50,007 nt of DNA, from assembly GCA_022616235.1 (NCBI GenBank), contig JAKEFC010000080.1, positions 1 through 50,007 of the forward strand. Direction: 5' to 3'. A program made the position numbers and the translations under genes. How positions within the stretch are numbered: position 1 is the first letter of the stretch; each line of letters starts with the position of its first letter. The notes under the pieces are model-generated. The model ran no database searches and was not told the DNA's origin. It saw only the letters and a program-made list of their open reading frames with translations. This DNA is from Planctomycetota bacterium (GTDB lineage: Bacteria; Planctomycetota; UBA8108; UBA1146; JAKEFC01). Positions 34,222 through 39,809 of this stretch are shown here, in pieces.

Positions 34222-34390
34222 ATCGTGTCGAGGCGGGGCCTCGACTAGGGAGGACCCGAGGCTCTGTCTCCGATGGCGGGACGATGCGGTGCTTGCCGGC
34301 CGGTGTCATGGAGATGCGGCAGAGCCGCGGGGGCGCGGTGTCGAGGCGGAGCCTCGACACCAGGGGGGCTACGCAAGAGCCGCGGTTATG
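34222..34390. repeat. REP-like palindromic element, copy 2 (between convergent dinB and metE)
   Basis: Carries the same perfect 11 bp palindrome as the 12776 copy (34337-34361) plus a second, GTCGAGGC / GCCTCGAC with loop GGG at 34227-34245. Long shared blocks with copy 1 include CGATGGCG, GACGATGCGGT and CGGCAGAGCCGC. It fills most of the 276 bp gap and may act as a bidirectional terminator. Confidence 0.75.
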
Positions 34391-34444: not shown

Positions 34445-35587
34445 TCACGCGCGGAGGATACGCGCCGCGGCGGCGAGGGCCGCGAGCTTCGCCTCGGCGA
34501 CGCGCGCGCTGGCGACGGGGCGCTCCGCGAAGGTGCCGAATCCGCAATCGGGATTGAGAAAAATCCGCTCGGCCCCGAGCACGGCGGCCGCTTCGCGCGT
34601 GCGCGCCGCGATCCACGCGGGGGTTTCGATCTCTTCCGTGCGCGGATTGACGACGCCGAAGCCGAGCTGGGTGCGCTGCGGCAAGTCGCGAAGTGCGACG
34701 ACAGACCCCGCGCGCGGCGTCGCGTATTCGAGGACGAGCTGGCGCACCTTCATGCGCCGCAGGTACGGCACGAGCGGATCGTAAGGTCCCTCGAGCAGCA
34801 CATCTTCCCGCTGGCTCCAGTTGCCGCGGCAGATGTGGAGCGCGAGCAACGGACCCTCGATCCCGTCGACGACGCGGTTGATCAACTCCACCGCGAACTC
34901 CAGCTCGCGCTCCGGACTCGCGCTCGCCGCCAGCGCCGCGCACATGAACGTGCGCGTCGCGGACTTGCCGGCGAATACCAGCTCGGTGAGCACCGGCTCG
35001 TCGAACTGAATCAATTCCGCCCCTTCCCGCGCCAACTCTTTGACTTCATCGCGGAGGATGCGGACGAAGTCATCCGCGAGCGATTCTCGGGTCGGGTACG
35101 CGCCTTCGGAGAGGGACTTCACCCAAGTGGATCTGCTCAAGAGATAAGGGCCTGGAAGCGTCACTTTGACCGGCCGGCGCGTATGCGCCCGCAAGAAGCG
35201 ATAGTCGCCGAGCACGAGCGGCTCGCGCACCGACAGCCTGCCGACCACGGTAGGGTTCTTGATTGCGTAAGCCGGAACGTCGAGCGCGCCGAGCAGCGCC
35301 TCGAATCCCGCCTTGTCCTCCACGTAGTCGAGCAGCTCCGCCATCGTCATGAGACGGATCCCATCCAGGCGCTCGGTGATGAAGGAGTAGAAATTGTCGC
35401 GCCGCTGCTCGCCGTCGGAAACGATGTCTACGCCCGCGTCCTCTTGCCTCTTGATCGCGAGCAGCGTCGCGTCGTCTTGAAGCTCTCGCAGATTGGGAGC
35501 GCGCCGCTTCATCGCCTCGAGCAACCAAGAGGGGCGCGGCCAGCTTCCGACGACGGTCACTGGGTAGAGCGGCCAGCGCGGGGTCAT
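34445..35587 (-). CDS. Short (core) cobalamin-independent methionine synthase
   Basis: Methyl transfer to homocysteine, zinc-dependent. 380 residues match the MetE C-terminal catalytic barrel only; full MetE is about 750. The zinc ligands are visible: H251 and C253 in LHICRGNW, a Glu in VLEYATPR, and C348 in NPDCGFGTF. The start TVVGSWPRP and QFDEPVL are family-typical. Core MetE proteins in other prokaryotes use alternative methyl donors such as methylcobamides; the donor here is unknown. The ATG overlaps the stop of the TusA-OsmC gene (ATGA), so the two are coupled. Confidence 0.88.
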   Translation of the reverse strand: MTPRWPLYPVTVVGSWPRPSWLLEAMKRRAPNLRELQDDATLLAIKRQEDAGVDIVSDGEQRRDNFYSFITERLDGIRLMTMAELLDYVEDKAGFEALLGALDVPAYAIKNPTVVGRLSVREPLVLGDYRFLRAHTRRPVKVTLPGPYLLSRSTWVKSLSEGAYPTRESLADDFVRILRDEVKELAREGAELIQFDEPVLTELVFAGKSATRTFMCAALAASASPERELEFAVELINRVVDGIEGPLLALHICRGNWSQREDVLLEGPYDPLVPYLRRMKVRQLVLEYATPRAGSVVALRDLPQRTQLGFGVVNPRTEEIETPAWIAARTREAAAVLGAERIFLNPDCGFGTFAERPVASARVAEAKLAALAAAARILRA

Positions 35588-36324
35588 GTCCTCCTCAATT
35601 CGACGTGCAGGGGTATCTCGCGGAAGAGCGACTGTGCGACCGGCGAACGGGCGATGGTCTCCCGCCAGAGGCTCTCGATCTCTTCATCGCTGCCGTCCGC
35701 ATCGATGAAGAGCTTTCCTTCGACCGCCGCGAGCCCGGGATGGCCGCCCTCTTCGACGCCCAAGAAGTAGAGGATATTGTCGGCGCGCGCTTCGAGCGAG
35801 ACTTCCAGGTTGCGGACGGCGACGCTCCGCTGCGACATGCGCCAAGCGAGCCCCACCGCGAGACAACCCGCCAGCGCTCCGAGCAGGTACTCGATCGCGC
35901 TTGGCGCCGGATCCGCGGTGTCGAAGCTCGCCGGCTGCCCGATCGCGAAGGAGTGGCTGCGAGCGAAGGCCTTCGCGTGCAAGCCATCGCTCCAGCGCAC
36001 GCGCACCCGCCAGCGATAGTCGCGAGCCCGCTCCAGATCCGAGCCGAGGGAAGCGTCCTCGCCGCGCTTGCGGATGAAGTAGCGGGTGACGCGCGGTTCC
36101 ACGGCGGCGCTGCCGACGAGCGTGTGCCCCACCATGCGACACCATGCAGGCAAATCTTCCCGCACGCTGCTCTCGCGGCTCCGTACCTCGAGCACGCCGC
36201 CGGGAGGGAGCGGCTGCATGGCGTTTCGGATGATGAGCAGGAGGCCGCTCCCGCAGTCGAGATCGCCTCCATCGCACATCGCGTCCGCGCGCGGCAGGCC
36301 GTGGTCTTCGCCGGGAAGGCTCAT
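35584..36324 (-). CDS. TusA-like / OsmC-like fusion protein
   Basis: 246 residues in two parts. Residues 1-85 are TusA-like: DLDCGSGLLLIIRNAMQPLPPGG, with C24 in place of the CPxP cysteine, and DLPAWCRMVGHTL with C62. Residues 100-246 are OsmC-like: EYLLGALAGCLAVGL carries the first OsmC Cys (C154), while the second is replaced by Ser (RSPVAQSL, S227). OsmC peroxidases need both, so a sulfur- or thiol-handling role is more likely than peroxide reduction. The ATG has GAGGAA 7 bases upstream. It lies 10 bp after the dsrE gene. Confidence 0.85.
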   Translation of the reverse strand: MSLPGEDHGLPRADAMCDGGDLDCGSGLLLIIRNAMQPLPPGGVLEVRSRESSVREDLPAWCRMVGHTLVGSAAVEPRVTRYFIRKRGEDASLGSDLERARDYRWRVRVRWSDGLHAKAFARSHSFAIGQPASFDTADPAPSAIEYLLGALAGCLAVGLAWRMSQRSVAVRNLEVSLEARADNILYFLGVEEGGHPGLAAVEGKLFIDADGSDEEIESLWRETIARSPVAQSLFREIPLHVELRRT

Positions 36325-36334
36325 TGGAAATTCC

Positions 36335-36703
36335 TCAATAGGTGATCGCGGGGCTACCGTCGCCCAGGAACTCGACGAGCTTCGCGCCGCCGACGATCGT
36401 AGCGCCGGGGACGAGTTTACCCTCGTCGAGGTTGCGCTTTTTGAAGCAGGGGGAGCAGACCCAGATCTTTCCTCCAGCTTTCACGAAGTTCCCCATCAAT
36501 TCCGCGAGCGGAGCGAAGCCGCTCTCGTGGATCCTCTCTGCGCTTCCGCGCTGCGACAGGAGCACGCCTTCCGTGCTCAAGAAGACGAGAGTCTCCTTGT
36601 CGGACGCGGCGGCCGCGTTCGCGACGACGAACGCGACCGTCGCCTTGTCGGGATTGTCCAAGGAGCAAGTCAGACTCACGCAGAATTTCTTCGACACGGT
36701 CAT
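36335..36703 (-). CDS. DsrE family sulfur-relay protein
   Basis: 122 residues with the DsrE/TusD-like fold pattern: SLDNPDKATVAFVVANAAA, LVFLSTEGVLL and GKIWVCSPCFKKRNLDEG, the last with two Cys (C83, C86). It ends KLVEFLGDGSPAITY. Proteins of this family carry sulfur as persulfide between partners. The ATG overlaps the upstream TusA-like gene (ATGA). Confidence 0.88.
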   Translation of the reverse strand: MTVSKKFCVSLTCSLDNPDKATVAFVVANAAAASDKETLVFLSTEGVLLSQRGSAERIHESGFAPLAELMGNFVKAGGKIWVCSPCFKKRNLDEGKLVPGATIVGGAKLVEFLGDGSPAITY

Positions 36704-37329
36704 TCCGCCTTTCGTTCGATCCGGTAGTGCGGGTGGGCGGCCTCGAGCATCGTATGACCCGTGAGGCCGCACCAGGCCGGCAGGTCCGCCGGCGCGCCGG
36801 GGTCCCTGGCGGTCACCGCGAGGATGGCCCCCGGCGGCAACGCGCGCAGGCGTAGCCTCAACTCGAGGACCAGGTCCCCGCACGACATGTCTCCCGCGTC
36901 CCATGTCGCATCGGGTTCGCGGTCGAGCGCCGCTTTCGCTCCGCCTACTTTGCCGCGCGCCCCGCCGCCGCCGGCTCCCGCGCCGCTCGCGCGATACCAG
37001 TCGGCGAATGCGTCCTGCGGCAGGGCCGTAGCCGCGAGGCCGAGCGCGATATTTGCCCACTCCCACCCCGCGCGGAAGCAATCGATCCGTCTCGCGTAGT
37101 CGTGCACCTCCTCGAGCAGCTCGCGCCGATCGCGGCCGAGGAGCGCGGCGGCGCAGGGCAGGCAATACGGCGTGCTCTTGTAGCCGAGGAGCACGCTCGC
37201 CACGTAGTCATGGCCGCCGACGCGAGCGTGGCACCGCGCGCAAAGCACGCCGCCAAGGCGCGAAAGCTCCTCGAGCAGCGCCGCTTTGCGCGCGTTCTCT
37301 TCCCCAGGGGCAGGAGAGCCGCCGAACAT
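36700..37329 (-). CDS. Zinc-ribbon / TusA-like fusion protein
   Basis: 209 residues. An N-terminal C30-x2-C33 and C56-x2-C59 pair looks like a zinc ribbon. A Gly-rich linker (115-130) follows, then a TusA-like domain with WDAGDMSCGDLVLELRLR (C150) and DLPAWCGLTGHTM (C187). The TusA CPxP is CGD, as in the neighbouring TusA-OsmC protein, so both belong to the same variant group. First gene of the sulfur operon; its ATG has GAGAGG 6 bases upstream, 15 bp past the transglutaminase-like gene. Confidence 0.82.
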   Translation of the reverse strand: MFGGSPAPGEENARKAALLEELSRLGGVLCARCHARVGGHDYVASVLLGYKSTPYCLPCAAALLGRDRRELLEEVHDYARRIDCFRAGWEWANIALGLAATALPQDAFADWYRASGAGAGGGGARGKVGGAKAALDREPDATWDAGDMSCGDLVLELRLRLRALPPGAILAVTARDPGAPADLPAWCGLTGHTMLEAAHPHYRIERKAE

Positions 37330-37344: not shown

Positions 37345-38430
37345 CTACTTCTTCTCCTTGAAGGTCAGCTTGCGTGTGTATTCGCTCGACTCCTTGCCGT
37401 CGATCTCGACGTATGCTTTCGCCATCGCGTTCACCGGACCTCCGGTCTGCTTCGGCTCGAGGGTGAGGTCGCGGCCTTGCGACCAGGTGATGCGACGCTC
37501 CTCGAGATTGCCGAAGTAATAGTTCACCTTCGCCAGGTCCGTGCCGGAATATCCATCCGCAGTCGTCAATCCCACCTTGCCTTTGTTGCCGTCGGTGAGC
37601 TTGAAATCGCCGACGAAGATGTCCGCCACCGCGACGTCGAGCGGCACCCAACCGATGCCGGGCGCGAAGAACTCGAGCCAACAATGATAGCTCTGATCCT
37701 TGTCATGCCCATCCAGCTCCTTCTTCAGGAACGAGCCGTAGATGATGCGAGTCGGGATTCCCGCGGCACGGGAGAGCGACATGTAGAGCGAATGGAAATC
37801 GGTGCAGTTGCCGGTCTTCGACGAGAGACAATATTCGGTATTACCCGTCGGCGAAGCCTTCTTGTGGTCGGGGTCCTTGACCCAATAATCGATGTTCGCG
37901 AGGACCCAATCGTAGATCTTGCGCGACGCGGCGATCGGGTTCTTCTCGTCGCCGACGATCGTGCGCGACAGCTCCTTGATCTTGTCATCGATGACGACGT
38001 TCGCGTGCGGGCCCAAGTACTTCTGCTTGTCCGCGAGGTCCTGCGCGGAATAGGCGCGGGTCATCGCCGGATCGACCGCGACGCTCACCTCGCTCCGGGC
38101 GACGGTGAACGCGGTCGTCACCTTGAATTCCCCGGCCGCGGGCGAGGCAAGCTCGAAGTACAAATACTCGTTCCCATCCTGGTCCTTCGTATCGCGCCCG
38201 GCGACCGGAGCGTCGACCTTCCAATTCGTGACCCTCTGCGCCGGATCCGCTTGGGGCCGCGTAAACCAGATGCGGACCTGTTTGGCGCCGGCGGGCACTT
38301 TTACCGCCAGCTCGTGCTGCACGTCGAAGACCGCCTGCTTCGCCGCCGCCGCCGCCGCCGCCGCGTCGCCTTGGGCGGTGCAAAGGATGCCGGCGAAGAG
38401 CGTGCCGAGGATCCAATTCTGCGATCTCAT
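37345..38430 (-). CDS. Exported transglutaminase-like protein
   Basis: 361 residues with a signal peptide (WILGTLFAGILCTAQGDA). The transglutaminase-like triad is present: C209 (KTGNCTDFHSL), H249 (SYHCWLEFF) and D265 (WVPLDVAVAD). Such domains act as peptidases or amide hydrolases in the periplasm. ATG at 38430 follows GAGGGA by 7 bases; the longer frame would run into the porin gene. It is 15 bp before the sulfur operon and could be co-transcribed. Confidence 0.85.
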   Translation of the reverse strand: MRSQNWILGTLFAGILCTAQGDAAAAAAAAKQAVFDVQHELAVKVPAGAKQVRIWFTRPQADPAQRVTNWKVDAPVAGRDTKDQDGNEYLYFELASPAAGEFKVTTAFTVARSEVSVAVDPAMTRAYSAQDLADKQKYLGPHANVVIDDKIKELSRTIVGDEKNPIAASRKIYDWVLANIDYWVKDPDHKKASPTGNTEYCLSSKTGNCTDFHSLYMSLSRAAGIPTRIIYGSFLKKELDGHDKDQSYHCWLEFFAPGIGWVPLDVAVADIFVGDFKLTDGNKGKVGLTTADGYSGTDLAKVNYYFGNLEERRITWSQGRDLTLEPKQTGGPVNAMAKAYVEIDGKESSEYTRKLTFKEKK

Positions 38431-38498: not shown

Positions 38499-39809
38499 TT
38501 AGAAGTGGTAGGCGATCCAGAGCCGGTAGCGGTTGTCCCGCCCTTCCGCGATGCCGCGGAAGTCCGTCTCCCAATGCATGTATTCGAATCCGACTTCCAC
38601 CGGCTTCCAGGAGATGATCTTGCCGCCTGCGTAGCCGATCTCGTTGCGCGTGCGGCCGGCCGCGGCGCCGCCGTTCGTGACGTCGGTGCGGTTCGGCTCA
38701 TCCGCCGAGTAGCCGACGAACAGCTCCAGCGCCTGCGACGGCCTGCCGCCGAATTCGATCCAGTATCCCTGCGAATGCACTTCCTCGCCGGCGACGACGC
38801 CCTGGCCAATGCCTCCGCGCAGGTCGTCGAGATTCGAGCCCTTCCAGATCTCGCCGCGGACGTAGGCCGTATCGCCGACGTACACGTTCGCGTCGAGTCC
38901 CCACAGGATCACGTTGAAGTCGTCATCGCCCGCGACTGGCACATCCGTTTCCTCCCACCCGCGCGCCCCCCAAATTCCGATCGACAAGGGGCCCTTGGCC
39001 TTGCCCTCCGGCGCCGTGGCGACTGGCGACGGCACCTCGAAGCCGAGGCGCGCCTGCAATTGCGGGAGACCGGCATCCTCGCCGTCGAGGATCGTGTCGC
39101 CGTTCGCGTCCGAGTTGTCGATCGCGCTCTGCAACGCGAGCGCGCCCTGCACGAGGAATTTCGCCTCGCCATGTTTGTGCTCGTACGTAAGACGCGCCTG
39201 CGGGCGGCGGTCGCCGGTATTGCCGGCGTTCCAATTCAACATGTCGGGATTGGCCGACGGCCAGAGCGGCGACACGAGGTCGATCGTCTGACCGCCGAGG
39301 AAGGTGACGTTTCCCTTCTTGAGCGTGAGATACGCGTGGCGCATGCGGAAGGAGTTCCGCGAATTCGAACCCGCGCCGTAGAAGTCCACTTCGATCTTGC
39401 CGTCTACGTCGAACGATTCGAGCGTGGGACCGTTGAAGTCGAAGCCGATGCGAGTGAGGCGCGTGTAGAGCGAGAAGTAGTCGTCGTTCTTGTGCGCGCC
39501 CGTATTGACGTCCTCGGACGCGATGAAGATCGGAATCTGGGATGTGTTCGGCTCCGAGTCGTCGTATACGGCGTCGATGCGTGCGAATCCGTAGAGCTTG
39601 AAATAGGACCCGAGCTTGGTGAGGAACTCGGAAGTCTTCTGCGCTCTCTCGAGCACTTCGACTCTTTTCGCGAGGTCGGTCGGATCGCCGGTCGCCGCCG
39701 GCTGCTGTTGCGCGAACGAATCCGCGCGCGCCTGCGCTGCGACGGCGAGAGGCAGGACGACCGCGGCGAACCAGAGCAGCGCGCGGACAGGAGACTGTGC
39801 GCAATTCAT
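38499..39809 (-). CDS. Outer-membrane porin, DcaP-like
   Basis: 436 residues: signal peptide (LLWFAAVVLPLAVAAQARA), a short coiled coil (KRVEVLERAQKTSEFL), then amphipathic beta strands starting KLYGFARIDAVYDD. It ends in NRYRLWIAYHF, the aromatic C-terminal Phe signal of outer-membrane barrels. Alternating short strands and Asp/Asn-rich loops (DNSDANGDTILDGEDAG) fit a trimeric DcaP-type porin. The substrate is unknown. A 283 bp divergent gap to rsmG has no clear promoter. Confidence 0.83.
   Translation of the reverse strand: MNCAQSPVRALLWFAAVVLPLAVAAQARADSFAQQQPAATGDPTDLAKRVEVLERAQKTSEFLTKLGSYFKLYGFARIDAVYDDSEPNTSQIPIFIASEDVNTGAHKNDDYFSLYTRLTRIGFDFNGPTLESFDVDGKIEVDFYGAGSNSRNSFRMRHAYLTLKKGNVTFLGGQTIDLVSPLWPSANPDMLNWNAGNTGDRRPQARLTYEHKHGEAKFLVQGALALQSAIDNSDANGDTILDGEDAGLPQLQARLGFEVPSPVATAPEGKAKGPLSIGIWGARGWEETDVPVAGDDDFNVILWGLDANVYVGDTAYVRGEIWKGSNLDDLRGGIGQGVVAGEEVHSQGYWIEFGGRPSQALELFVGYSADEPNRTDVTNGGAAAGRTRNEIGYAGGKIISWKPVEVGFEYMHWETDFRGIAEGRDNRYRLWIAYHF

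Follow-up and report, generated by a model that had tools for sequence, protein, structure and literature searches.

A conserved operon of TusA, DsrE, TusA-OsmC and MetE-like genes with a probable link to bacterial selenium use

A row of genes encoding a Zn-ribbon-TusA protein (ZnTusA), a DsrE family sulfur/selenium relay protein, a TusA-OsmC fusion and a core MetE-like Zn methyltransferase is an ancient operon that has been conserved over many bacterial phyla. Both its partners and its genome distribution point to selenium, and not to a route from sulfur to methionine, and the operon is very likely linked to selenium use. The function proposed here, to which somewhat less than even confidence is attached, is that of a selenium-linked methyltransferase system that would allow cobalamin-independent recovery of selenium from methylated compounds such as methylselenol. 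The window analysed is the whole stretch of 50,007 nucleotides of contig JAKEFC010000080.1 (assembly GCA_022616235.1), which belongs to a Planctomycetota MAG of 3.1 Mb that is 80% complete.

Within the window the genes lie on the minus strand in the order DcaP-like outer-membrane porin (38499..39809; PF19577, 36.1 bits, cut-off 27), exported transglutaminase-like protein (37345..38430; PF01841, 82.8 bits), ZnTusA (36700..37329; PF01206, 37.7 bits), DsrE (36335..36703; PF02635, 55.3 bits), TusA-OsmC (35584..36324; PF02566, 42.0 bits) and MetE-like methyltransferase (34445..35587; PF01717, 95.9 bits). The match of TusA-OsmC to PF01206 is marginal, at 28.9 bits against a cut-off of 28.6, and that of ZnTusA is clearer. 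ZnTusA and DsrE overlap by 4 bp, as do TusA-OsmC and the MetE-like gene, and 10 bp separate DsrE from TusA-OsmC. The preliminary description of this DNA, in which these four genes overlap or lie within 10 bp of each other, is therefore borne out, and the Pfam domains agree with it; the end that it assigned to the unit is not, as it overlooked the transglutaminase-like gene 15 bp upstream of ZnTusA and the porin gene another 68 bp upstream, which leads a probable six-gene unit. The transglutaminase-like protein has a signal-like N-terminus (MRSQNWILGTLFAGILC), and its homologues adjoin the operon in relatives from the Methylomirabilota, Acidobacteriota and Planctomycetota. A homologue of the porin is likewise found in related operon loci, mostly directly next to the transglutaminase gene. 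In a single relative (L051, 3-941) the transglutaminase-like homologue has GNYTDFH for GNCTDFH, such that the catalytic-type Cys is a Tyr, which reflects either a sequencing error or lost catalysis. A scan for promoters and terminators gave a near-chance result, and an Rfam search of the window returned zero matches. A 21 nt palindrome (GTGTCGAGGCGGGGCCTCGAC) is repeated in two near-identical copies, spaced 113 bp, at 34225-34385, where they separate the MetE-like gene from a Y-family polymerase-like gene.

The neighbourhood survey proposed with the preliminary description was run by scanning an alignment of the MetE-like protein against 84,980 species and tallying by hand the partner classes in the best 80 loci. 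The order TusA, DsrE, TusA-OsmC, MetE is kept in 55 of these 80, which argues that the arrangement did not arise by chance and rules out an operon confined to the source genome. At least eight phyla are involved, and carriers of the full order are found among the Methylomirabilota, Acidobacteriota, Planctomycetota, Poribacteria, Nitrospinota, Chloroflexota, Pseudomonadota and Bacillota. Among the other loci of the best 80, OsmC is the sole partner in 17, DsrE and TusA-OsmC are present in two where the first TusA was not found, TusA-OsmC is the only partner in one, and the available DNA holds no partner in five. The OsmC-only type additionally occurs in the Latescibacterota and in two archaeal groups, and is frequently accompanied by an acyl-CoA-dehydrogenase-like gene and a gene for an Rv1680-like binding protein. 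A further branch, at 45-50% identity, has the order TusA, DsrE, TusA, MetE, with the OsmC match absent. On the tree the operon types need 4 changes, compared with 22 in shuffles, and clades of operon carriers mix several phyla. The operon is present in the culturable species Neobacillus mesonae, N. vireti, N. bataviensis and Schinkia azotoformans, and likewise in Candidatus Brocadia. A literature search found no paper that combines TusA, OsmC and DsrE, or a core MetE and TusA. In Nitrospinota and Gallionella MAGs a four-gene block adjoins the operon (L078, 11214-15029; L096; L109), of which three genes are without a Pfam or NCBIfam name and the fourth is DsbC-like; its presence in all three loci could stem from gene transfer or from an artefact of binning.

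The MetE-like protein consists of 380 amino acids and is without the N-terminal folate half of MetE, and its earlier designation as a short core MetE is correct in that the homocysteine and zinc ligands are kept. With the ligand positions of MetE taken from PMC7857596, where the homocysteine equivalents are Ser433, Glu484 and Asp599, the Zn ligands H251, C253, E287 and C348 and the homocysteine ligands S15, E60 and D196 are invariant in all 86 sequences, across identities of about 45-78%. The protein nevertheless falls far below the NCBIfam cut-offs for methionine synthases, reaching 69.1 bits against the 930 set for TIGR01371 (MetE, a two-domain protein of about 750 amino acids) and, as the best score to any curated methionine synthase, 172 bits against the 406 needed. 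An AF2 model (pLDDT 89) has 3rpd as its best PDB match. An additional residue, Cys216, is located in a [TS]FMC motif (TFMC in the window, codon at 34940..34942, minus strand); it is a Cys in 83 of 85 sequences and a TGA codon in the other two, and is kept in the distant branch L163-L167. Residue 216 lies between the strand at 192-196 and the helix at 225-240, in a loop that was modelled with low confidence and is thus probably mobile. Judged by the topology of the model, this loop would be on the catalytic face of the TIM barrel, and residue 216 may be able to reach the Zn site.

The two TGA codons are in frame and occur in two different Planctomycetota families, in loci L054 (genome G073) and L068 (Planctomycetaceae MAG_30). 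Both genes belong to one clade (support 100/100), in which they share 265 of 360 residues and differ at 95. Downstream of the TGA there are 61 synonymous versus 38 non-synonymous codon differences between them, which indicates that the reading frame is under selection beyond the TGA, and the fourteen-codon windows around the TGA have the top DNA conservation of the gene (88-93%, versus 67% overall). A sequencing error is unlikely, as two genomes of different families share the TGA with the frame kept. SelA is encoded in both genomes (G073 and G087), and SelD was found in G073 only; the short folds that simple SECIS folding of the two sequences predicts after the TGA differ between the genes. 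The MetE-like gene of L054 and L068 therefore probably encodes a selenoprotein in which the TGA would be read as selenocysteine (Sec). This form is likely to be a new selenoprotein, as no description of it was found; a 2022 review of prokaryotic selenoproteins contains no MetE or methionine synthase. Three genes that diverge from this Sec-type operon (L054, 2248-6046) encode an Rv1680-like binding protein, an acyl-CoA-dehydrogenase-like protein and a protein of 433 aa whose N-terminus resembles TusA.

In known systems persulfide is carried by TusA and DsrE, and the earlier reading of the partner proteins as persulfide carriers is supported. ZnTusA joins a Zn-ribbon (CxxC..CxxC) to a TusA domain whose motif is MSCGD, and its C150 and C187 are present in 63 of 63 and 62 of 63 aligned relatives, respectively. 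The TusA part of TusA-OsmC has an LDCGS motif, with cysteines C24 (kept in 62 of 62) and C62. Both TusA domains and their aligned relatives thus have C-G where the CPxP motif is missing, and their assignment to a separate subgroup is upheld, this Cys being invariant in all relatives checked. DsrE has a CSPC motif in which C83 and C86 are both conserved in 61 of 61 relatives. The OsmC domain is without the Ohr cysteine pair; as had been noted, one of the two is left, C154 being its sole Cys, and this is replaced by Asp in 17 of 80 relatives. The AF2 model of TusA-OsmC (pLDDT 88) matched both the OsmC and the TusA fold. A second OsmC-like gene directly follows the MetE-like gene in L101, L134 and ten more loci, nearly all from the Bacillaceae.

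Carriers of the operon are nearly always selenium users, a link that the preliminary description had overlooked. SelD scores over its cut-off in 47 of 50 full-operon genomes and in 17 of 19 OsmC-only carriers, both exceptions being archaea, and SelA is present in 51 of 55 carriers; for comparison, Sec biosynthesis has a published base rate of 21.5% among bacteria (PMC10418091). Among the 78 nearest relatives no association with SelD is evident (6 of 7 carriers, 62 of 78 overall), and larger genome sets were for this reason taken. Here SelD was found in 8 of 8 carriers versus 168 of 300 genomes overall in the order of Neobacillus (p=0.009), and in 44 of 49 carriers versus 201 of 343 non-carriers in the Planctomycetota (p=6e-6), although these p values ignore shared ancestry, and the counts are inflated by it because selenium use is common in the carrier clades, as among the near relatives. 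Three full-operon genomes (G087, G096, G113) are without SelD over the cut-off and one carrier (G012) has neither SelD nor SelA; together with the two archaea, these suggest that selenium is optional in places or that assemblies are incomplete. Many of the genomes are MAGs, such that an absent SelD may reflect missing contigs.

Selenium genes are also encountered beside the operon. SelD adjoins it in two loci only: in L069 SelD and a putative selenate SBP are directly downstream of the operon, and in L104 (396-5834), a Chloroflexi contig, a tRNA-Sec, SelD, OsmC, an acyl-CoA dehydrogenase-like gene, an Rv1680-like binding protein gene and the MetE-like gene follow on one strand. A LysR gene occurs in twelve Bacillaceae loci, and the four that were tested score 291-297 against a cut-off of 250 for NF040786, a model named as selenium metabolism-associated, such NCBIfam names being themselves predictions. 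LysR_Se has been tied to Sec users (PMC5322559). The LysR of L107 was set aside as a further selenium-associated case, being distant at 176.7 of the 250 bits.

These features can be joined into a mechanism for the recovery of selenium from methylated compounds. Where present, the porin and the transglutaminase-like protein would aid the uptake or release of an organic compound. The Zn of the MetE-like enzyme, in its His-Cys-Glu-Cys site, would hold homocysteine as a thiolate, and a methyl-selenium compound would be bound on the active-site side to the mobile Cys/Sec216 as a mixed selenyl-sulfide (CH3-Se-S). Attack of homocysteine on the methyl group would then yield methionine and leave a perselenide on residue 216, from which selenium could pass to the C-G TusA, to DsrE with its CSPC motif, to TusA-OsmC and finally to SelD, a path that would avoid the release of free selenide. 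No corrinoid protein or UroD-type Mlp was found among the six operon genes of the window or the named partners in relatives, and this, together with the absent folate half, was counted in favour of a recovery that is free of B12. The broader version of this proposal, that of a widespread and so far unrecognised B12-free demethylation of methyl-selenium in which a Cys/Sec MetE-type enzyme passes the methyl group to homocysteine and protein-bound selenium moves through TusA and DsrE to SelD, with a new selenoprotein family in some Planctomycetota, is put forward as a conjecture that is less likely than not to hold.

Selenium carriers could also be at work with no methyl chemistry, whereby TusA, DsrE and OsmC would move selenium on behalf of SelD, and a seleno-compound such as selenohomocysteine would be the ligand of the MetE-like fold. 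The SelD and SelA counts would be the same under this arrangement, and YedF, which combines TusA and DsrE, is already tied to selenium (PMC5322559). It is an unlikely arrangement, if one to be taken seriously, in that every Zn and homocysteine ligand of a methyltransferase has been kept across the whole range of identity.

A sulfur version of the scheme would have methanethiol or another methyl-sulfur compound recovered or detoxified, with a persulfide relay through TusA and DsrE and an indirect link to selenium. The persulfide role of these proteins in known systems fits such a scheme, as do the carriers without SelD (G012 and the archaea) and a mercaptopyruvate-sulfurtransferase-like neighbour in L093, a homologue of which stands next to the archaeal operon in L135. 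It leaves unexplained, however, the LysR_Sec, SelD, tRNA-Sec and putative selenate-SBP neighbours as well as the genome association, and is considered improbable.

That sulfur is carried toward homocysteine or methionine, as was initially suggested, is unsupported. MetH, whose absence from carriers had been raised as a point to check, scores over its cut-off in 40 of 55 and is partial in several others, including the source genome; its presence in most carriers makes housekeeping methionine synthesis or a sulfhydrylation route unlikely. Scans of four Bacillota operon loci turned up no methionine riboswitch, of the SAM kind or any other, and on these two grounds the sulfhydrylation/methionine route was rejected. 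The same results weigh on a related idea, half suggested earlier, by which the MetE-like protein is a fifth core methionine synthase family that makes housekeeping methionine from an unspecified methyl donor. The Zn and homocysteine ligands and three carriers with no MetH match (G083, G085, G086) speak for it, but it also has to contend with scores far under the methionine synthase cut-offs and gives no reason for the selenium association and the Sec form, which makes it very doubtful. The reverse reaction, a detoxification in which the MetE-like enzyme methylates selenide for export, fits the selenium association and the carriers equally well, yet is highly improbable, as the operon has no SAM-dependent domain and methionine donates its methyl group poorly in a MetE-type site.

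The recovery of selenium from methylated compounds remains the proposed function, and the operon bears on how bacteria may achieve it and on how toxic selenide is transferred to SelD. It also places in a selenium context a MetE-like family that annotation would label methionine synthase. Since carriers include culturable species and Candidatus Brocadia, the proposal is directly testable.

Several known systems share parts of this arrangement. The closest solved structure to the MetE-like protein, by sequence and fold, is 3rpd, a B12-independent methionine synthase of Shewanella, although identity is 27% and the sequence alignment breaks at the stretch of residue 216. The core methionine synthases MesA-MesD (PMC7857596) are likewise built from one C-terminal MetE domain, whose Zn and homocysteine ligands are those found here; the operon described here differs in being without CoFeSP or MesX, in the additional Cys/Sec216, and in that MetH is usually present too. 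The OsmC fold of TusA-OsmC is common to the OsmC/Ohr peroxidases, whose two-Cys peroxidase centre it does not have. YedF (PMC5322559) resembles the operon in linking TusA and DsrE domains to selenium use, but it joins them in one polypeptide, with the motifs CPxP and CGxC, whereas the operon encodes separate proteins with C-G and CSPC and has its TusA domains fused to OsmC or a Zn ribbon in place of DsrE. The nearest precedent for the proposed mechanism is that of the corrinoid Mlp clusters, which have been proposed to recycle methyl-selenide into methionine (Kountz and Balskus, PMC10418091). Type I mlp clusters resemble the operon in that their Zn methyltransferases come from a related fold group and have methyl-selenium compounds as proposed substrates, and also in their sulfurtransferase neighbours and a strong link to Sec machinery, found in 87% of mlp carriers (PMC10418091). 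They rely on a UroD-type Mlp and a corrinoid protein and occur mostly in anoxic settings, whereas the operon described here pairs a MetE-type enzyme with TusA, DsrE and OsmC.
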